A stretch of DNA of 44,331 nucleotides from Candidatus Krumholzibacteriia bacterium (GTDB lineage: Bacteria; Krumholzibacteriota; Krumholzibacteriia; LZORAL124-64-63): the NCBI GenBank assembly GCA_024762975.1, contig JANTGJ010000014.1:1-44331 (forward strand), given 5' to 3'. Under the pieces are notes generated by a model that saw only the letters and a program-made list of their open reading frames with translations, ran no database searches and was not told where the DNA came from. The translations under genes were made by a program, and so were the position numbers. Below, in pieces: positions 24,104 through 36,765 of this stretch. Position 1 is the first letter of the stretch; the number at the start of each line of letters is the position of its first letter.

Positions 24104-25621
24104 TCAGACCAGTCCGTAGGATTTGATTTTCCGATACAACGTGCGTTCGCTGATGCCCAACTGCTGGGCCGCCTTGCGGCGATTTCCTTCGCTGGCATTC
24201 AGGGCAGCTTCGATCAGGGTCTTCTCGGCGGACTGCAGATCACCCACCTGCTCACTGGGCAACGGCGCGAATCCGACTTCGCCGGGAAAGGTTTCGATGA
24301 CCGAGCCATCACGTCGCAGGGGCACCGTGTCCCCGAGGCGCCATTGGTCGGTGCCTCCCTCCTGCGACCGGGTCAGCAGCGACTTGATTTCGCGGATCTC
24401 CTGACGCATTTCCAGCAGGGTGGTCGCCAGCAGCGCCAGATCCAACCCACTGGTTGCGGCCCGTTCCGCATCCAGGGCGACGGGCAAAAATCGTTTGCCT
24501 CCGCTGCGCAGTTCACCGGGGAGATCCTGCGTGTCGATCAGTCCGCGTTGTTTCATGACCGCCGCCGAACTGATCGCGTTGCGCAATTCGCGGACGTTGC
24601 CGGGCCAGTCATGATCGAAGAGATGTTGCTCCGCCGCTCGGGTCAAACCGCGCACATGCAAGCCGTGCTTCTGGTTCTCCTGCGCTAGGAAGGACTCCAC
24701 CAGCACCGGAATGTCTTCGGGGCGATCTCGCAACGCCGGCGTCCGGAGCACCACGACCCGCAATCGGTAATACAGGTCCTGCCGGAAACGGCCTGCCTGA
24801 ACATCCGCTGCCAGATCCTGATTCGTCGCCGCGACCAGTCGGAAATCCGTTTTCTTCGTCGTGCGGCCACCGACCGGAATGAACTCACCGGTCTCGAGCG
24901 TTCGCAGGAAGCGGGTTTGCATCCCGAGCGGTAGCTCGCCGACTTCGTCCAGGAAGAGCGTTCCCCCGTTGGCCCGTTCGAAGACTCCGGCATGGTCGCC
25001 GACCGCTCCGGTGAAAGCGCCGCGAACGTGGCCAAAGAGTTCACTTTCGAGGATTCCCTCGCTCAGCGCTCCACAGTTCAGGCTGATGAACGGGCCCCCC
25101 TCGCGTTTCGAATTGTCATGGATCGTCCGCGCAACCAGTTCCTTGCCGGTGCCGCTTTCACCCAGCACGAGGATGTTGACGTCCAGCGGGGCCGCATGTG
25201 CGACCATCGAAAGCAACTCATCCATGGCGCGACTGCGGCCGACCATGCCACTGCGCCGCCGCACCTGGCGCAGTTGTACGCGCCGGCGAACGGCCTGCTC
25301 GATCTCGTCCGGGTCCGCATTTCCGGCGATCGACTGGACGGCGACGTCGAAATCCGCCGCGTCCGATCCGGCGATTTCCTGTTCGTGACCGACCAGCAGC
25401 AGATCGGCGTCCGAGTTCATCGAGGCGAATTTGCGGACCACATGGCGAAATCGCGGATACTCCCGGGCATCGAAAACGAATACGACCGTCGTCCCGAGGG
25501 AAATCTTCGCCAACGCTTCGGATGGGGATTCGAAAAGATACAGCTCGGTATCGGGAATTTCCCATTCGCGGGCCGCGGCGATCAGGCGGGACCGGCGGCT
25601 GAGCAGTACGATCGCGGACAC
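24104..25621 (-). CDS. Sigma-54-dependent transcriptional activator with degenerate receiver domain
   Basis: A 505-residue bacterial enhancer-binding protein. The AAA+ domain carries Walker A GESGTGKE (154-161), an intact GAFTGA sigma-54 contact loop (201-206), Walker B LFLDEVGE (222-229) and an arginine-finger region. A Fis-type helix-turn-helix ends the protein (NRRKAAQQLGISERTLYRKIKSYG). Residues 1-115 resemble a receiver: Asp51 is at the phosphorylation position (VFDAREYP), but the acidic pair is SR and the conserved Lys is absent, so it is probably phosphorylation-independent. GTG start with GGAGG eight bases upstream. As the last gene of the flagellar cluster it is the prime candidate to fire the sigma-54 promoter at 36149-36163; it may be FlrC/FlgR-like in role. 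Confidence 0.92.
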   Translation of the reverse strand: MSAIVLLSRRSRLIAAAREWEIPDTELYLFESPSEALAKISLGTTVVFVFDAREYPRFRHVVRKFASMNSDADLLLVGHEQEIAGSDAADFDVAVQSIAGNADPDEIEQAVRRRVQLRQVRRRSGMVGRSRAMDELLSMVAHAAPLDVNILVLGESGTGKELVARTIHDNSKREGGPFISLNCGALSEGILESELFGHVRGAFTGAVGDHAGVFERANGGTLFLDEVGELPLGMQTRFLRTLETGEFIPVGGRTTKKTDFRLVAATNQDLAADVQAGRFRQDLYYRLRVVVLRTPALRDRPEDIPVLVESFLAQENQKHGLHVRGLTRAAEQHLFDHDWPGNVRELRNAISSAAVMKQRGLIDTQDLPGELRSGGKRFLPVALDAERAATSGLDLALLATTLLEMRQEIREIKSLLTRSQEGGTDQWRLGDTVPLRRDGSVIETFPGEVGFAPLPSEQVGDLQSAEKTLIEAALNASEGNRRKAAQQLGISERTLYRKIKSYGLV

Positions 25622-28478: not shown

Positions 28479-29456
28479 CTAGGCGCCGAATCCGGGCCAA
28501 CCGGTACCGCTGGAGGCCAGCCACGTCAGGTAGGCCGTCAGCTGACACAACGCCAGCCCGGCCATCACGTTGACAGGCTCCAGTTTCCTCGAGGAAGTAC
28601 TTGCTCCGAGCGGAATCGGCTCGGGTTCCGGATCCGCGCTCTGCCGTTTCCGGATCTCCTGTGTAATCTGACCCAGGCTCTGCTTGCCCTCGTGACGCTG
28701 GATCTTGCCCTTGAGGCGCAGGATCGCCTTGGTGTGGATCTGGCAAACGCGGCTTTCGGTGACGTCCAGAATTTCGCCGATCTCCTTGAGCGTCAGTTCC
28801 TCGTAGTAGTAGAGCACCAGGACGAGTTGTTCCTTGTCCGGCAGTTCGGTCATCCGCTCGCCGATCAGGTCCTTCATTTCCTGACGCGCGAGCACCTGTT
28901 CGACGTCTTCGGTCTTGGGATCGGCCAGATAGTCCCCCAGCGAAGTGGACTGCTCACTGTCGTCACCGGAGGCATCGGCATCCAGGGACATGATGGTCGC
29001 AATCGAGACCTCGCCGATCATACCGTCCAGATTTTCGATATCGATGTCCAACTCACGGGCCACTTCGGCATCGGTTGCGGGGCGGCCCAATCTGCCTTCC
29101 AGTCGGCTGTAGGCTTCCTCCAGCTGCTTGGCCTTGCGACGCAGCGAACGGGGAAACCAGTCCTGGCTGCGGAGTTCGTCGAGGATCGAACCGCGGATGC
29201 GCGGGATTGCATAGGTCTCGAACTTGATGCCGCGCTCATGGTCGAAATTGTCGATCGCCTGGATCAAGCCCAGCAATCCGGCCGAGACCAGATCGTTGAA
29301 CTCCACGTAATGCGGCAGGCCGATGGCCATGCGCCCGGCCACGTACTTGACGATGCGCGCGTAGATATTGACCAGGTCCCGGCGTCCTTCGTCAGCGCGG
29401 TCGCCCCGGCAGCACTCCCACAGCTCCTGATGTGCGATCTGGACGGTTTCGGTCAT
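28479..29456 (-). CDS. fliA: Flagellar sigma-28 factor FliA/WhiG type with C-terminal extension
   Basis: A 325-residue sigma factor for late flagellar genes. Region 2 shows YVEFNDLVSAGLLGLIQAIDNFD and ERGIKFETYAIPRIRGSILDELRSQDW, the FliA/WhiG signature. Region 3 follows, and region 4 is LPDKEQLVLVLYYYEELTLKEIGEILDVTESRVCQIH-like (about 205-250). Ordinary FliA proteins end soon after region 4 (about 240-265 aa). This one continues ~70 residues: a Pro/Glu linker (PEPEPIPLG) and a hydrophobic stretch near 296-314 (VMAGLALCQLTAYLTWLA). The extension stays in frame and ends 30 bases before the next gene. ATG start with AAAGG upstream. No anti-sigma factor FlgM is seen here. Confidence 0.93.
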   Translation of the reverse strand: MTETVQIAHQELWECCRGDRADEGRRDLVNIYARIVKYVAGRMAIGLPHYVEFNDLVSAGLLGLIQAIDNFDHERGIKFETYAIPRIRGSILDELRSQDWFPRSLRRKAKQLEEAYSRLEGRLGRPATDAEVARELDIDIENLDGMIGEVSIATIMSLDADASGDDSEQSTSLGDYLADPKTEDVEQVLARQEMKDLIGERMTELPDKEQLVLVLYYYEELTLKEIGEILDVTESRVCQIHTKAILRLKGKIQRHEGKQSLGQITQEIRKRQSADPEPEPIPLGASTSSRKLEPVNVMAGLALCQLTAYLTWLASSGTGWPGFGA

Positions 29457-29542
29457 TTCAATGCCTTTCTATCGGATCGAGAGATATCCCTCGTTTGCAC
29501 GTTCCATGCCAGCAGCTCGGTCCCCATCGGGTCCGAGCCCGC

Positions 29543-29755
29543 TCATTCCTTCTCCTGCTCTTCGTCCAAACCGGAATTTTCGAAATACGATACGGACTTC
29601 ACCGCCAGGGCCATGATGGCTCCGAGGATAAAAAATCCCAGGTAGGCGATGACCATCTTCTTCAGCGTGGCCACCAGCCCCCAGTCCTGCCAGAGAGCCG
29701 CTGCCAAGGCAGCCAGGGCGGCTCCAAGCGCTAGATTGTGGATCAGCTGGTACAT
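29543..29755 (-). CDS. Small two-helix membrane protein in the FlhG position
   Basis: A 70-residue protein I do not recognise, with two predicted membrane helices (about residues 4-22 and 33-55) joined by a short basic loop (LKKM) and an acidic tail (LDEEQEKE). No cysteine or catalytic motif. It lies between flhF and fliA, where most flagellar operons carry flhG, a MinD-like ATPase; it is not FlhG. Ribosome-site candidates GAGG and GAGA lie upstream of the ATG. Hydrophobic pattern and tight spacing (35 bases after flhF) favour a real gene. Confidence 0.65.
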   Translation of the reverse strand: MYQLIHNLALGAALAALAAALWQDWGLVATLKKMVIAYLGFFILGAIMALAVKSVSYFENSGLDEEQEKE

Positions 29756-29790: not shown

Positions 29791-30987
29791 TCATGCCGAA
29801 GTGAAATTTCCCGCTTCGAATCCCTGCGACGGAAGTTCGGCTCCCGCACCCAGGATGCGGTCCAGCAATTCGCCCGAGGCGGCCACCGACAGTTTCGCCT
29901 GGCCCTCGCGGACCTCACCGGTCAGCGAGTACGGCAACGGAATCAGTTCCGCCAGATTCAACAGCTTGCCCTGCAGGCGGGTACGATCCAGGCGGTTGAC
30001 TGCCAGCCAATCGCAGTTCCAGTCCCGCGCGGCCCGCTGGAGGGACCCCGAATCCTGCAGATCACGATCCAGGGGCACCACCAGGTGGCGGTGGAAACCG
30101 GGATTGCGGGCCAACCAACGATGCACCGCGCCGCCGGGCGCCAGCGACGGATGGTCCAGCGCCGGAAGGTCCAGCAGAACGACCTCGTACTTGGACAGGT
30201 GACTCTCGGAGCGTTCGAGCTGCGAATCCTTGCGCAGGATCGCGGCATCGAAACCGTGGTTCGCGGCCGCGTTCTGCAGACGACGGATCTCGCCGGCATG
30301 AGCCGGGTGCAGATTCAGCACCAGTGTCTTGCGTCCGTGGGCCCGTTGCTCGGCCGCCGCTCCGAGGACCAGGCTGGTTCGGCCGGTTCCGGACTCACCC
30401 AGGAAGGCATGGCAGCCGAAGAACCCCTCCCACCCGCAATTGCTGGCTTTCAGGTACCGCGTCAACCAGGCCAGCGCCGCCGGACGGTCCTGGATCGCCG
30501 ATCCGGTTTCCCCGGCGAAGCGAGTCAACAGATGAGCGACCGTTTCCCGTGTTGCACCCGATTCGATCAGGTTTTCCGCCAGCGGATTGCCTTCCAGGTC
30601 GTACCAGGGATCCTGGGTCGTCCCGGATTGCGTCGCTTCCCGAACCAGACGCTCAATGCGCTCCACTTCACCGACGATTTCGCGGACCAGTTCGTGGGTC
30701 TCCTCGCGAGCCGGAACGGGATCCTGCGGGCGAATCCCACCTCCGCGGTGCATCGTGGCCGATGCCGTTCTCCGGGTCTCCTGCCCTGGCGGCTGCACCG
30801 TGACCTCGACCAGTTCCTCATGTCCGAGCCCGGTCTCCTGGCGCCGCGTGATCTTGCGACTGCCCAGGATGATCACATTCTTGCCGTAACTGGACTCCAC
30901 CTTGCGGTAGGCCTCCTTGAGAGTCGCCCCGTAGAAGACGTTCTCACGCGGACTAGCCGACGGCGTGCTGTTCTTGTTGGGCACCAC
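29791..30987 (-). CDS. flhF: Divergent FlhF-like flagellar SRP-type protein
   Basis: FlhF is an SRP-family GTPase that sets flagellar position and number and acts near the flagellar base. This 398-residue protein keeps the N-terminal FlhF signature (ATLKEAYRKVESSYGKNVIILGSRKI, about 21-46), a middle helical N-domain, and a G-domain-like C-terminal half. The GTPase motifs are altered: P-loop GESGTGRTS (197-205) has Arg203 where Lys is expected, G3 reads DLPA (273-276) instead of DTAG, and G4 reads NRLD (331-334) instead of TKLD. GTP binding or hydrolysis may be lost or changed. GTG 30987 (or 30984) overlaps flhA by 35 bases. Position directly after flhA confirms the family call. Confidence 0.85.
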   Translation of the reverse strand: MVPNKNSTPSASPRENVFYGATLKEAYRKVESSYGKNVIILGSRKITRRQETGLGHEELVEVTVQPPGQETRRTASATMHRGGGIRPQDPVPAREETHELVREIVGEVERIERLVREATQSGTTQDPWYDLEGNPLAENLIESGATRETVAHLLTRFAGETGSAIQDRPAALAWLTRYLKASNCGWEGFFGCHAFLGESGTGRTSLVLGAAAEQRAHGRKTLVLNLHPAHAGEIRRLQNAAANHGFDAAILRKDSQLERSESHLSKYEVVLLDLPALDHPSLAPGGAVHRWLARNPGFHRHLVVPLDRDLQDSGSLQRAARDWNCDWLAVNRLDRTRLQGKLLNLAELIPLPYSLTGEVREGQAKLSVAASGELLDRILGAGAELPSQGFEAGNFTSA

Positions 30988-33073
30988 GGGTCACCACCGT
31001 TCCTGCCGACTGGACCTGCGCCGAGGAAGCCACCTCGGTATAGCCCATCACGGCCAAGTTGGGATAGGTCGGCTCGACGAGCCGCTTGACGAAGAGTCGA
31101 ATCGGAGTCGGCACGAGCAATACGGGTGGCGTGCCCTGTGCGTACGCGCCTCGTAGCACGCCCTCGAGCCGGGTCATAAAGGTCTGCGTGAAATCCGGGG
31201 CCAGAACCACGCCACCGGCCTGGTCCGATTCGCGAGCGGCCCCCATCAGGGTTTGCTCGGTTTCCGGATGCAGGCTCACGACGTGAATTTTGTTCTCCGG
31301 ATCGCTGTACAACGCCGTGATCGATCGGGCCAGCGCTTCGCGCACCTTGCCGACCATGAAATCCGTGCCCATGCCGCTGCCGGCGAAGTTGGCCAACGTT
31401 TCCAGGATGCTAACGAAATCGCGGACGGGTACCCGCTCGTGCAGCAGCGAACGCAACACATTGTGCAACGTGTTGACCGGCACCTTGTCCGGCACCAGAT
31501 CTTCGATTAGCGAGGGAGCGTGTTCCCGCAGCGACTCGCACATATCCTTGACGTCCTGGCGGCTGAGCAATTCGTCACTGTGGGTGCGGATCAGCTCGGA
31601 CAGATGTGTGGCCAGTACCGCCGCGGGCTCGACGACGGTGTACCCCTCCCGTTCGGCCTCGTTCTTCTGTTCGGGATCGATCCACAACGCCGGCAGGTTG
31701 AAAGCCGGCTCGGTCGTCTGCAATCCGATCAGCTGGCCCGGCTCGGCGCCGGTACTCATGGCCAGCAGCTTGGTCGGCAGCAACTCGGCCTTGGCGATAC
31801 TCACACCCTTGAGCTTGATCTGATACTCCTGGGCGGCCAGCTGCAGGTTGTCCCGCACCCGGATCGGGTGAATGAAAATGCCCAATTCATTGCCGACCTG
31901 GCGCCGGATGTTACTGATCCGGTGCAGCAGATCTCCGCCCCGCTGTTCGTCCACCAGGGGGATCAGGCCGTATCCGATTTCCAGTTCCAGCTTATCCAGG
32001 ACAAAGAGGTCTTCACTGCGAATCCCCTCCGGTTCCTCCGGCGCTTCGGCGGTCGCCGCCTCGAGAGCCGCAGCCTCGCTCTTTTCCTGCTGCTCGTCGT
32101 AGCTGCGAACCCGGCGTCCCATGAAGACTCCGGCCAGAGCGGACAGGGCGGCGAAGAATAGGAAGGGTCCGGTCGGCAGACCGGGAATCAAGGCCAGCAG
32201 CGTCATCGCGCCGGATGCCAGGAACAGGGCTTTCTCCTGACGGAAGATCTGCAGGGTGATCGTCTGCCCCAGATTCAGCGATCCGGCGGACCGGGTCACC
32301 ACCAGGCCCGCACTCGTGGAAACCAGCAGGGCGGGAATCTGACTGACCAGACCGTCGCCGACGGTCAGGATCGTGAAACGCGACAGGGCTTCCGTCGCAG
32401 GCATGCCCATCTGCAGCATCCCGATGATGAAACCCGCGGCGATGTTGATCACGGTGATGATGATGCCCGCAATGGCATCGCCCTTGACGAACTTCGAGGC
32501 ACCGTCCATGGCGCCGAAGAACTCGGCCTCCCGCGCGATCTCTTCGCGTCGCTGACGGGCCTGGCGCTCGTTGATGATGCCGGCGTTCAGATCAGCGTCG
32601 ATGGCCATCTGCTTGCCCGGCATGGCGTCGAGCGTAAAGCGGGCCGCGACCTCGGCGATCCGGCCCGAACCCTTGGTGATGACCATGAAGTTGATCACCA
32701 CGAGAATGCTGAACACGATGACACCGATGACGTAGTTTCCGCCCACCACGAAATCACCGAAGCTCTGGATCACCTGTCCTGCCGAGCCCTTGCTCAGGAT
32801 CAACCGCGTCGAGGCCACATTCAAAGAGAGTCGAAGCAGTGTCAGGATCAGCAACAGCGATGGAAAGCTGGAGAATTGCAGCGGTTCCTTCAGATACAGC
32901 GAAACGAGCAGAACGGTCACGGCGAAGGCCATGCTGAAGGTCAGCATCATGTCCAGCATGATCGCCGGCACCGGCACGACCATCATGCCCAGAATGGCCA
33001 GCACGGCAGCCGCGCTCAGCACATTGCTGTTGGCCAGTACCAGATCCCTGCCGATGACCGAATCCTGCTGCAC
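30953..33073 (-). CDS. flhA: Flagellar export gate protein FlhA
   Basis: FlhA forms the nonameric ring of the flagellar type III export apparatus and docks chaperone-substrate complexes. About 706 residues: eight N-terminal membrane helices (from SNVLSAAAVLAILG to about residue 330) containing the FHIPEP loop region (RFTLDAMPGKQMAIDADLNAG), then a cytoplasmic domain with KGVSIAKAELLPTKLLAMSTG and ending VASSAQVQSAGTVV. The start is GTG 33073 with AAGGG seven bases upstream; TTG 33079 lacks room for a ribosome site. Lies 15 bases after flhB. Confidence 0.96.
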   Translation of the reverse strand: MQQDSVIGRDLVLANSNVLSAAAVLAILGMMVVPVPAIMLDMMLTFSMAFAVTVLLVSLYLKEPLQFSSFPSLLLILTLLRLSLNVASTRLILSKGSAGQVIQSFGDFVVGGNYVIGVIVFSILVVINFMVITKGSGRIAEVAARFTLDAMPGKQMAIDADLNAGIINERQARQRREEIAREAEFFGAMDGASKFVKGDAIAGIIITVINIAAGFIIGMLQMGMPATEALSRFTILTVGDGLVSQIPALLVSTSAGLVVTRSAGSLNLGQTITLQIFRQEKALFLASGAMTLLALIPGLPTGPFLFFAALSALAGVFMGRRVRSYDEQQEKSEAAALEAATAEAPEEPEGIRSEDLFVLDKLELEIGYGLIPLVDEQRGGDLLHRISNIRRQVGNELGIFIHPIRVRDNLQLAAQEYQIKLKGVSIAKAELLPTKLLAMSTGAEPGQLIGLQTTEPAFNLPALWIDPEQKNEAEREGYTVVEPAAVLATHLSELIRTHSDELLSRQDVKDMCESLREHAPSLIEDLVPDKVPVNTLHNVLRSLLHERVPVRDFVSILETLANFAGSGMGTDFMVGKVREALARSITALYSDPENKIHVVSLHPETEQTLMGAARESDQAGGVVLAPDFTQTFMTRLEGVLRGAYAQGTPPVLLVPTPIRLFVKRLVEPTYPNLAVMGYTEVASSAQVQSAGTVVTRGAQQEQHAVG

Positions 33074-33088
33074 TTGCAATCCCTTCTA

Positions 33089-34150
33089 TCAGGACTTCTT
33101 GAGTCGATAGACGTAGGCCAAAATCTCGGCCACAGCCTGGAAGAAGCTCTCGGGAATCATCTTCCCGACCTGGACTTCCTTGTACAGGGCCCGGGCCAAT
33201 GGTTTGTTCTCCATCACCGGCACCCGTGCCTTGCGCGCGATCTTCTTGATCTTCTGGGCCAGTTCATCCTGTCCCTTGGCCACCACGATCGGAGCCGGTT
33301 GTCCCGGCATGTACTTCAGCGCGATCGCCAAGTGCGTCGGGTTGGTGATCACCACATCCGCGGTGGGCACCTCGGCCATCATCCGTTTGCGGGCCATCTC
33401 GAACTGCAGACCTCGCACCCTGGCCTTGATCTGCGGATCACCCTCGATATCCTTGAACTCCTGTTTCAGGTCCTGTTTGGTCATCTTGAGGTTCTCTTCG
33501 TACTGATGCTTCTGCCAGAACCAGTCCGCAATCGCGACGATCGAGGTAAAAAGAATCAGCACCGAGATCAGTTTGACGAATTCGTGCTTGCCCTCACCGA
33601 CGATGTCGGGAATCGAAAACAACGAAACCGCGGCCAGCTTACCCATCGACGCACTGATCACGGCCCACGCCAGCAACGCGATGACGGCGATCTTGAACAG
33701 ATTCTTCAGCAGGTCGAAAAACGCCTGTTTGCGGAAGAACTTCTGCATCCCCGAAACCGGATTCAGCTTGTCGGCCTTGAAAGCCAGGGCTTCGGCGCTG
33801 GCGTGAAAACCGACCTGCATCACATTCGAACCGACAGCGGCGATCAGGACCGCCAACAACAGGGGCGCCAAAGCCGATACGATGTTCTCCAGGTTCGCGG
33901 ACAGCAATTCCCGGACCCCGAACTGGTTGCTGGGGGCCAGGACATGTGCCTGGGAGAGCAGATACGTGGTATTGGAGCCCAGAACCCGGGCGAAATGGGC
34001 TGAGGAGGCCACCAGGACGGTCATACCGACCAAAAGGATGAGTGCGCCGGTCACCTCCTGGCTTCGGGCCACCGTACCTTTGTTTCTCGCTTCTTCGCGC
34101 CGTTTATCCGTCGCTTTCTCTGTGCGTTCGCCACTGCTCTCTTCAGCCAT
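33089..34150 (-). CDS. flhB: Flagellar export switch protein FlhB
   Basis: FlhB controls the switch from hook-type to filament-type export. The 353-residue protein has a basic N-terminus (ERTEKATDKRREEARNKG), four membrane helices (about 34-210) and the cytoplasmic autocleavage motif NPTH (270-273, in VVITNPTHLAIALKY), all intact. The charged C-terminal domain ends EILAYVYRLKKS. ATG 34150 has an excellent AGGAGGT six bases upstream. Gap of 73 bases from fliR. Confidence 0.97.
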   Translation of the reverse strand: MAEESSGERTEKATDKRREEARNKGTVARSQEVTGALILLVGMTVLVASSAHFARVLGSNTTYLLSQAHVLAPSNQFGVRELLSANLENIVSALAPLLLAVLIAAVGSNVMQVGFHASAEALAFKADKLNPVSGMQKFFRKQAFFDLLKNLFKIAVIALLAWAVISASMGKLAAVSLFSIPDIVGEGKHEFVKLISVLILFTSIVAIADWFWQKHQYEENLKMTKQDLKQEFKDIEGDPQIKARVRGLQFEMARKRMMAEVPTADVVITNPTHLAIALKYMPGQPAPIVVAKGQDELAQKIKKIARKARVPVMENKPLARALYKEVQVGKMIPESFFQAVAEILAYVYRLKKS

Positions 34151-34223: not shown

Positions 34224-35006
34224 TCAGCGCATGGCCAGCAACAGGCCGGTCAATTGATCCTGCATGCCGACGAACATCTGCATCACGATGGTCCGGTAGA
34301 AGACCAGGCTTGCGCCCAGCGTCACCAGGCCAACGGCGATCTTGATCGGAAAGCCCACGATCAGGACGTTGATCTGCGGCACCGTCTTGACGATGACGCC
34401 CATCGAGGCGCTGACCAGCAGCAACACCAGCACCACCGGTGCGGCGATGCGGAATCCAATCGAAAAAACGGTTCCGAATTCCTTGAGCAGGACCCAGGCG
34501 CCGGCGGAAGGATCCAGGCTCCCGAACGGGGGAACGACCACGCAGGACTGAAACATCGAGCTGATCAGGATGTGGTGGGTTCCGGTCACGAAGAACAGGA
34601 GTACGGCCAGCAGGTAGTACAACTGCGAGATGACCGAGACCTGGGAGTTGCTCATCGGATCGAAGGCGTTGACGATCGCGAATCCGATCTGCATGCCGGC
34701 GATCGATCCGGCCATGCGCACCGTCGTGAAAACCAGATTGATGGCGAAGCCCAGCAGCAGTCCGACGACCAGCGACCGGATCGCTTCGATGGTCAGGATC
34801 TGCCAACCGAGGTCCACCCCACCGGCCGGCAGGGTGGCGGCCACGCCGGGCGCTAGGGCGCCGGCGAAACAGAAGGCCATCGCAACCCGCCACAGCGGAG
34901 GCACACTGCGCAGATCCAGGAGCGGCAAGGTCGCCGTCAGGACCGCAAAACGAACTGCCAGCGAGGCAGTTACCGCCATCAGGTTGATGTTCAGGTCGAA
35001 CTGCAA
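34224..35006 (-). CDS. fliR: Flagellar export gate protein FliR
   Basis: A 260-residue polytopic subunit of the FliPQR export pore. Typical features are an N-terminal hydrophobic block (TASLAVRFAVLTATLPL), AFDPMSNSQVSVISQL, SMFQSCVVVPPFG-like sequence and a C-terminal YRTIVMQMFVGMQ. The TTG start is preferred because GAGG lies six bases upstream and fliQ ends seven bases earlier. Five to six membrane helices are expected. Confidence 0.95.
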   Translation of the reverse strand: MQFDLNINLMAVTASLAVRFAVLTATLPLLDLRSVPPLWRVAMAFCFAGALAPGVAATLPAGGVDLGWQILTIEAIRSLVVGLLLGFAINLVFTTVRMAGSIAGMQIGFAIVNAFDPMSNSQVSVISQLYYLLAVLLFFVTGTHHILISSMFQSCVVVPPFGSLDPSAGAWVLLKEFGTVFSIGFRIAAPVVLVLLLVSASMGVIVKTVPQINVLIVGFPIKIAVGLVTLGASLVFYRTIVMQMFVGMQDQLTGLLLAMR

Positions 35007-35287: not shown

Positions 35288-36100
35288 CTACTGGAATGCC
35301 TGCATCAACGAGCGCACCACCAGGTACCAGCCGTCGACCAGGACAAAGAGAAGAATTTTGAAGGGCAAACTGATCAGCACCGGCGGCAGCATCATCATAC
35401 CCATGGACATCAGAACCGAAGCGACCACCATGTCGATGATCAGGAATGGAATGAACAGGATGAATCCCATCTGGAACGCGGTCTTCAACTCGCTGATCAC
35501 GAAGCTCGGGATCACGACCATCATCGGCAGGTCGGAAGGGGAATCCGGCGCTTCGGTTTCGGTCAATTCCAGGAACAGGCCGAGATCCTTTTCTCGAACC
35601 TGCCCCAGCATGAAGGTCTTCAGCGGTGCCTGGACCTTTACCAGCGCCTCTTCCTGGCTGATTTCCTCGGCCAGAAAGGGCTGCAGGGCGTCTTCGTTCA
35701 TCTGATGCAGTACCGGCGACATGATGACCACGGTCAGGAAGAGAGCCAGCCCGATGATGATCTGGTTGTTCGGCGCCTGATTGGTGCCGATCGCCTGCCG
35801 CAGGAATCCCAGGACGATGACGATCCGCGTAAAGCTGGTCAGCAGGACCAGGAAGGCGGGCGCCATGGAGAGGACCGTCATCAAAATGACGATCTTCAGC
35901 GCCGAATCCATGCCGGCCGGCCCGGTGACGCCATCCAGACTGAGGGTGAGCGAACCGGGGCCCTGGGGTAGCGCGATCGGCTCGATGGCGCCGGTTGCCG
36001 ACTCTTGGGCGAACACGTTGCCCGGCAGACAGATCGAGACCGCCAAGGCGCCCAGCATCGCGAGCAGGATCCAGTTCAGGTTCAGGGTATTGCGGTGCAT
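35288..36100 (-). CDS. fliP: Flagellar export gate protein FliP
   Basis: A 270-residue export-gate subunit with a cleavable-looking signal peptide (residues 1-31, WILLAMLGALAVSICLPGNVFA), then LKIVILMTVLSMAPAFLVLLTSFTRIVIVLGFLR and the FliP hallmark LALFLTVVIMSPV. The C-terminal half has FVISELKTAFQMGFILFIPFLIIDMVVASVLMSMGMMMLPP-type sequence. ATG 36100 with GAGGA upstream. It is the first gene after the sigma-54 promoter at 36149-36163, so the fliPQR-flhBA-flhF-fliA set can be switched separately from fliO and genes before it. Confidence 0.97.
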   Translation of the reverse strand: MHRNTLNLNWILLAMLGALAVSICLPGNVFAQESATGAIEPIALPQGPGSLTLSLDGVTGPAGMDSALKIVILMTVLSMAPAFLVLLTSFTRIVIVLGFLRQAIGTNQAPNNQIIIGLALFLTVVIMSPVLHQMNEDALQPFLAEEISQEEALVKVQAPLKTFMLGQVREKDLGLFLELTETEAPDSPSDLPMMVVIPSFVISELKTAFQMGFILFIPFLIIDMVVASVLMSMGMMMLPPVLISLPFKILLFVLVDGWYLVVRSLMQAFQ

Positions 36101-36148
36101 TTTTTCCTCGGCCGAAAATGGAGGTTGCAGTACTGACGGAGGAACTAG

Positions 36149-36163
36149 GCAATGGATGTGCCA
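36149..36163 (-). promoter_or_regulatory. Sigma-54 (-24/-12) promoter upstream of fliP
   Basis: The minus strand reads TGGCAC-ATCCA-TTGC, an exact match to the core sigma-54 consensus TGGCAC-N5-TTGC, with GG at -24 (36162-36161) and GC at -12 (36150-36149). The expected start site is near 36138, giving a leader of about 38 bases to the fliP ATG. It is intergenic, correctly oriented, and accompanied by an IHF-consensus site and upstream dyads, which makes chance unlikely. Confidence 0.85.
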
Positions 36164-36198
36164 GCGACGTGCAGTAGGAACGGTGGCCGAGAACGGTC

Positions 36199-36211
36199 TA
36201 ATTGATTGATA
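36199..36211 (-). promoter_or_regulatory. IHF-consensus site upstream of the sigma-54 promoter
   Basis: The minus strand reads TATCAATCAATTA, a perfect match to the IHF core WATCAA-N4-TTR, in an AT-rich block inside otherwise GC-rich DNA. It is centred about 67 bases upstream of the predicted start site, where IHF commonly bends DNA to bring a distant activator onto sigma-54 polymerase. Whether this organism has IHF cannot be seen here. Confidence 0.65.
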
Positions 36212-36242
36212 TCATGTAAATAAAGGAGTTTCCAAAAACCGG

Positions 36243-36315
36243 GATCGCCCACCGGTTCTGGCAGGCGATCAGAAAGCGGATCAGATTCATGAAGGAGGGC
36301 GGTCAGGAACTGACC
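36243..36315. promoter_or_regulatory. Candidate activator (enhancer) sites upstream of the fliP promoter
   Basis: Three repeat structures at about -105 to -177: an inverted repeat GATCGCC/GGCGATC (36243-36249 and 36264-36270), a direct repeat GATCAGA-N5-GATCAGA (36267-36285), and a perfect dyad GGTCAG-GAA-CTGACC (36301-36315). The distance suits a sigma-54 enhancer for the Fis-type activator at 24104-25621. The last dyad could instead be a weak fliO terminator, but no T-run follows. Confidence 0.5.
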
Positions 36316-36324
36316 AGCATGAAA

Positions 36325-36765
36325 TCAGGCGCGGGCGGACGCACTGCGGCGGGTCGCTGACGCCGGTTCCTGTCCTGAAGTACCGGCACCCGGCAGGAAT
36401 CGCCTCAGGAGGCTTGCGGGGGATGCGGGCGTCGGCGGCATCTCAACTCTCCCCTTGGATGCCTCCCAGCTTGCCAGGGACTCCTTTTTCAACACCACCA
36501 TCGCCCCGTCGTGGCGGTAGATCGTGTGAATCTCGTCATCCAGACGAAGGATCTGCATCTCGCGACGCGGACCCAGATTCCAGACGGCGACGATCGAAGC
36601 GCGGCCCTGGGATTGACGGCGCTGGAAACGCCCCAGCAGCTTCATGCAGACCACCAGTAGCCCGAAAACCACCAGCAGTCCACCGGCGGTCTGCCACCAG
36701 GTTCCGCCGTGACTGCTCAGCAGGGCAGCCGCGGGATCCGGCGCAGCGGCGGCCAGGAAGTGCAT
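36325..36765 (-). CDS. fliO: Flagellar assembly protein FliO
   Basis: A 146-residue single-pass membrane protein that helps FliP assemble into the export gate. A membrane helix (WWQTAGGLLVVFGLLVVCMKLLG, about 23-45) is followed by a FliO-type cytoplasmic domain (RASIVAVWNLGPRREMQILRLDDE) and a Pro/Ser/Ala-rich tail. The ATG overlaps the fliN stop (TAATG). It is separated from fliP by 224 bases, unusually wide for fliO-fliP; that gap holds the sigma-54 control region. Confidence 0.85.
   Translation of the reverse strand: MHFLAAAAPDPAAALLSSHGGTWWQTAGGLLVVFGLLVVCMKLLGRFQRRQSQGRASIVAVWNLGPRREMQILRLDDEIHTIYRHDGAMVVLKKESLASWEASKGRVEMPPTPASPASLLRRFLPGAGTSGQEPASATRRSASARA

Follow-up and report, generated by a model that had tools for sequence, protein, structure and literature searches.

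The junction between fliO and fliP in a flagellar cluster of a Candidatus Krumholzibacteriia bacterium very probably holds a sigma-54 promoter region, assisted by an IHF-type protein, from which a separate transcription unit would start; a second promoter of the same class appears to precede fliA. The window, i.e. the whole stretch of DNA that was analysed, is the 44,331 nts of contig JANTGJ010000014.1 (assembly GCA_024762975.1). Its relevant genes, whose names rest on HMM matches, are:

36325..36765, minus strand: fliO, last gene of the upstream unit (TIGR03500, E 7.7e-6, below cut-off; synteny)
35288..36100, minus strand: fliP, first gene of the putative sigma-54 unit (TIGR01103, E 3.4e-83)
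34224..35006, minus strand: fliR (PF01311, E 6e-54)
33089..34150, minus strand: flhB (PF01312, E 3.7e-119)
30953..33079, minus strand: flhA (PF00771, E 7.6e-262)
29791..30987, minus strand: divergent flhF (TIGR03499, E 6.5e-13, below cut-off)
28479..29456, minus strand: fliA, sigma-28 (Sigma70_r2, r3 and r4)

The identity of fliO is backed by fliN-fliO-fliP synteny in relatives, and HMM matches also name fliN, fliM, fliL, motB, motA, flgE, flgD and two HDOD proteins. The divergent FlhF has no Pfam GTPase match, and its P-loop-like motif, GESGTGRTS, is altered. In the interval from flhF to fliA no gene was recognised as flhG.

The gap from the fliO stop to the fliP start, positions 36101-36324, contains on its minus strand the element here termed P_fliP:

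36163-36148, minus strand: sigma-54 −24/−12 element, TGGCACATCCATTGCC (direct reading and conservation)
36137, minus strand: predicted transcription start of the fliP unit (from the geometry of the −12 GC)

The element reads TGGCAC-ATCCA-TTGC(C), its GG being at 36162/36161 and its GC at 36150/36149, so that direct reading bears out the exact TGGCAC-N5-TTGC match reported by the first-pass annotation. Every specified base of TGGCAYRN4TTGCW, in which GG and GC are 10 bp apart, is matched except the last W. Initiation near 36137 would leave 37 nts of leader, GAGG included, ahead of the fliP ATG at 36100. No sigma-70 promoter was found in the gap, and titles and abstracts in the literature yielded nothing relevant on a promoter upstream of fliP. 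A match of this kind in one genome alone is not decisive: with one mismatch allowed the pattern occurs 75 times genome-wide and its reversed control 109 times, and there is no genome-wide enrichment. What allows P_fliP to be called more than a chance match is its conservation in relatives.

FliP protein is present in 46 of 80 class genomes, the same 80 that a phylum-level search returns. GG and GC are intact in all 33 readable same-family gaps (30 loci of the main set plus L145, L197 and L198; G030 and G059, unreadable through a contig start that is too near or an incomplete match, were left out). The same-family loci have TGGCAYR-N4-TTGC 0–110 nts upstream of the fliP start, the first T being G in one of them, and gene starts in relatives are estimates by homology; at L056 and L057 the element lies just past the estimated start, which was misjudged. 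Outside the family GG/GC is kept in 8/11 class members (4/4 in f3, 3/3 in f5 and 1/1 in f7), with C replacing T at the first position in f5 and f7. In f4, three genomes (L146, L150, L151) keep the −24 half and have TTGA at −12 upstream of fliP, possibly a degenerate or altered promoter. One second copy of fliP, L196 of G077, is without the site and was set aside, this genome being listed at 7% contamination. The result is 41/44 readable class genomes, which as relatives are non-independent observations, with flanks so unalignable that they show far divergence. The rest of the gap cannot be aligned across relatives, and an anchored alignment has 2.0-bit columns nowhere but within the element, the maximum outside it being about 1.2 bits. 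Conservation of GG/GC in orthologous gaps, which had been put forward as a check on the original reading, thus holds. To judge from these comparisons, the lineage as a whole keeps the arrangement, which has degenerated somewhat in one family.

Within flagellar clusters the element is singular. Across seven 20-kb flagellar regions from relatives there is a single strict-pattern match per region, in every case at fliO-fliP. Junctions were also scored with a general sigma-54 matrix, written by the authors from consensus frequencies: 20 genes were covered, each in up to 8 genomes, and the best score in the 150 nts upstream of the gene start was taken. A score of 15 or more in 8/8 genomes is confined to fliP and fliA; the mean for other genes is at most 4.0, except for flhA at 10.3. 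The sigma-54-like matches upstream of flhA (at about −125) lie inside flhB, where they are conserved codons (LARxLY), and those upstream of fliL (at about −330) lie inside motB, again as conserved codons (LARYFQ); neither was accepted as a promoter, both look-alikes being set aside by their reading frames. P_fliP and P_fliA are the only intact sigma-54 sites at the junctions tested. No sigma-54 site was seen at rod, hook, switch or stator genes, and in G013 and G012 the early part of the cluster is without a strong upstream one. In the outgroup phyla examined fliO and fliP mostly overlap or are closely spaced, and no GG/GC element of the P_fliP kind was found upstream of fliP; the single high outgroup score, L081, falls inside the estimated fliP start region.

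Immediately upstream of P_fliP is a further element in keeping with a sigma-54 promoter:

36211-36199, minus strand: IHF-type site, TATCAATCAATTA (direct reading; perfect match to WATCAANNNNTTR)

The perfect IHF-consensus match of the first-pass annotation is therefore real. The site lies at −48, counted from the T that opens the −24 element, and this is precisely the offset at which the IHF-consensus score over 24 relatives is highest (6.75; mean 3.2 and sd 0.67 over offsets); 0/500 shuffles reach the observed mean. Many relatives keep the motif there, but it is weak or absent in L048, L051, L052, L054 and L056. As to ihfA and ihfB, for which a search had been proposed, the genome encodes three PF00216 (HU/IHF-family) proteins, one scoring best on HU models and two on IHF models; the latter two are IHF-like at 93.3 and 103.8 bits, short of the curated cut-offs (111 and 115). 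In RpoN-dependent control regions IHF is usually placed between promoter and activator site (PMC7962754).

Further upstream, enhancer-like repeats had been described at 36243-36315. Repeats do exist there. However, those at 36243-36270 are better explained as hairpin arms, and the enhancer reading of this part was dropped; the other part, a dyad, is the better candidate:

36270-36243, minus strand: terminator-like hairpin (arms GATCGCCTGCC and GGTGGGCGATC, 11-bp stem, 6-nt loop, followed by CCGGTTTTTG)
36316-36300, minus strand: 17-bp dyad TGGTCAGTTCCTGACCG, candidate activator (enhancer) site (shuffle test, relatives)

The hairpin may end the fliO transcript. It is not kept in the same form in relatives, whose fliO-fliP gaps frequently have hairpins, rarely followed by a T-run, and a terminator as a family-wide feature is accordingly unsupported. 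None of 200 shuffles reaches the score of the dyad, and its perfect match occurs once in the genome, at 36300-36316. About half of the relatives have related dyads clustering at the fliO stop codon, at a distance of 129–172 bp from the −24 element on its upstream side. The dyad is without significance in roughly half of the genomes, and some dyad scores are inflated by the stop codon TGA. With roughly even chances either way, the dyad would be the activator site.

A site absent from the first-pass annotation lies about 53 nts upstream of the fliA ATG (29456):

29511-29496, minus strand: P_fliA, sigma-54-type element, TGGCATGGAACGTGCA (conserved; −12 C at 29497)

P_fliA is kept in 28/28 genomes with fliA at the same place, families f4 and f5 included. 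Its consensus is TGGCAYGGA(A/T)NSTGCW, and the refined pattern has a single match genome-wide. Neither a dyad nor an IHF motif was found at P_fliA. Since the site is conserved before fliA, dependence of this gene would not be on P_fliP alone. The earlier proposal that the export gate, flhF and fliA come under separate sigma-54 control thus gains support from conservation, apart from the part in which fliA was served solely by P_fliP: it has a site of its own. Export gate and fliA are probably each under separate sigma-54 control throughout the lineage.

[Some side observations pertain to this part of the cluster. There is a 70-aa hydrophobic ORF at 29543-29755 (minus strand) between flhF and fliA, and some relatives have similar short hydrophobic ends upstream of P_fliA. 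Family f3 has two loci at which a search for a fliA homologue was negative: L203, in the interval from flhF to the HDOD genes, and L222, at the place expected for it. Elsewhere, a near-identical sigma-54-type site, TGGCACGCTCATTGCC (L183 5687-5702, minus strand, contig C5), is about 80 nts upstream of a TPR-repeat-like ORF near NADH dehydrogenase-like genes, as judged by eye.]

How else might these elements be accounted for? That P_fliP is a chance match in a GC-rich genome could draw on the abundance of one-mismatch patterns, not enriched over the control; this explanation is rejected as extremely improbable in view of the unbroken conservation in same-family gaps, its extension across families and the uniqueness of the element in 20-kb clusters. 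The conserved element could instead be an operator of another DNA-binding protein, for GGCA-N8-TGCC is partly palindromic and in most genomes P_fliP is GGCAY...RTTGCC, an imperfect inverted repeat. P_fliA, however, is non-palindromic (GGCAYGGATNCTGCA). The 3′ halves of the two sites differ, CTGCA in P_fliA and TTGCC in P_fliP, so that what is common to both is only GG-N10-GC with its neighbours, the sigma-54 core, and this argues against their being operators of one palindrome-binding protein. Their placing, 0–110 nts before fliP and ~53 nts before fliA, with IHF at a fixed spacing upstream of P_fliP, is also the standard promoter layout, and an operator is very unlikely.

More weight attaches to P_fliP being real but minor, with most transcription of fliP due to read-through from the upstream fliO operon and the promoter serving as a booster. 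All the genes are in the same direction, and the terminator-like hairpin lacks conservation in the same form; yet such a hairpin is present in the window, and the strictness with which the promoter is conserved suggests importance. Predominant read-through is considered rather unlikely, and a promoter region that starts its own unit remains the favoured explanation.

The first-pass annotation had pointed to rpoN as a gene whose absence would tell against sigma-54 control. It is present in the source genome, as in 76/78 class genomes and in 46/46 of those of good quality. The genome also has about 19 strong sigma-54 activators, one of which is in the window:

24104..25621, minus strand: sigma-54 activator (bEBP), candidate regulator of P_fliP (PF00158, PF02954)

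This protein has an AAA+ domain with GAFTGA and a Fis-type HTH that is near-invariant in alignment. Its gene ends the fliA gene run, a position kept in 7/7 relatives. The N-terminus has no Pfam receiver match and is predicted to alternate strand and helix, as in an atypical receiver-like fold. Full-length structural matches are NtrC1, NtrX and FleQ, with NtrC1 and NtrX above FleQ by fold; the best PDB relatives include FleQ, FlrC and ZraR, and ZraR (1ojl) is above FleQ by sequence. Another candidate for activation of P_fliP is a pair encoded closely upstream of flgB in relatives, a histidine kinase with a receiver-bEBP: in G013 genes for a HATPase protein and a REC-AAA-Fis bEBP are immediately upstream of the fliE-fliF run, and G005 has a similar bEBP at the corresponding place, a receiver-domain activator being found at this position, before flgB, in two relatives. 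Against this pair is the location of the 24104-25621 bEBP, in all seven relatives, in a gene run that would itself be sigma-54-controlled; the pair is accorded somewhat less than an even chance. At L174 (7021-9162, plus strand) genes for a histidine kinase-like protein and a receiver-type sigma-54 activator lie directly upstream of the fliE-fliF run, in the manner of FlgSR or FlrBC.

From these elements we infer how the promoters would act, by what regulator and in what order. P_fliP would start the transcription unit fliP-(fliQ)-fliR-flhB-flhA-flhF. A dimeric or oligomeric activator would bind the dyads around the fliO stop codon (about −130 to −170 relative to the −24 element), and an IHF-like protein would bend the DNA just upstream of P_fliP; the activator, for which the 24104-25621 bEBP is the candidate within the cluster, could then remodel the sigma-54 holoenzyme at TGGCAC-N5-TTGC, leading to DNA melting. 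In the source genome the terminator-like hairpin probably insulates the fliP unit from fliO. P_fliA would start a fliA-HDOD-HDOD-activator unit.

Sigma-54 control of flagellar genes is itself known; what appears unusual is the internal break between fliO and fliP, repeated before fliA. The FleQ/FlrA-dependent promoters of Pseudomonas and Vibrio are upstream of whole operons (fliE, fliK or fliL, flhA), and none is known there from the fliO-fliP junction. Early flagellar genes of Pseudomonas, flhF among them, are driven by FleQ with RpoN, and the likeness of the present case to the FleQ/FlrA-RpoN systems is in sigma-54 acting with a FleQ/FlrA-related activator on early genes, basal-body and regulatory (PMC3930126). 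Unlike in those systems, the sigma-54 sites here are at the gate genes and fliA, with none at the rod, hook, switch and stator genes. The FlgSR/FlrBC checkpoint of polar flagellates shares sigma-54, a receiver-type activator and a link to the export gate FlhA-FlhB-FliP-FliQ-FliR; in Campylobacter and Vibrio it is the completed gate that activates sigma-54 rod and hook genes (PMC7064773), whereas here the sigma-54 promoter precedes the gate genes themselves. Caulobacter, as cited in PMC7962754, has IHF-assisted sigma-54 flagellar promoters with the IHF site between activator site and −24/−12, a comparison that rests on that citation and concerns other gene sets and another lineage.

A tentative proposal, more readily doubted than accepted, is that the logic of polar flagellates is reversed in this group: rod, hook, switch and stator genes would be expressed without sigma-54, the fliP unit and then fliA would be sigma-54-gated, and positive feedback would come from the activator, whose gene closes the unit that it would help to activate. 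The contrast would be with the Campylobacter/Vibrio rule in which a finished gate is the trigger for sigma-54. FliO and FliP cooperate in building the gate; because their genes are nevertheless split lineage-wide by what appears to be a regulated break, gate assembly may be a control point of its own. An uncultured group thereby gains, from sequence alone, a testable flagellar hierarchy with two exact promoter positions.
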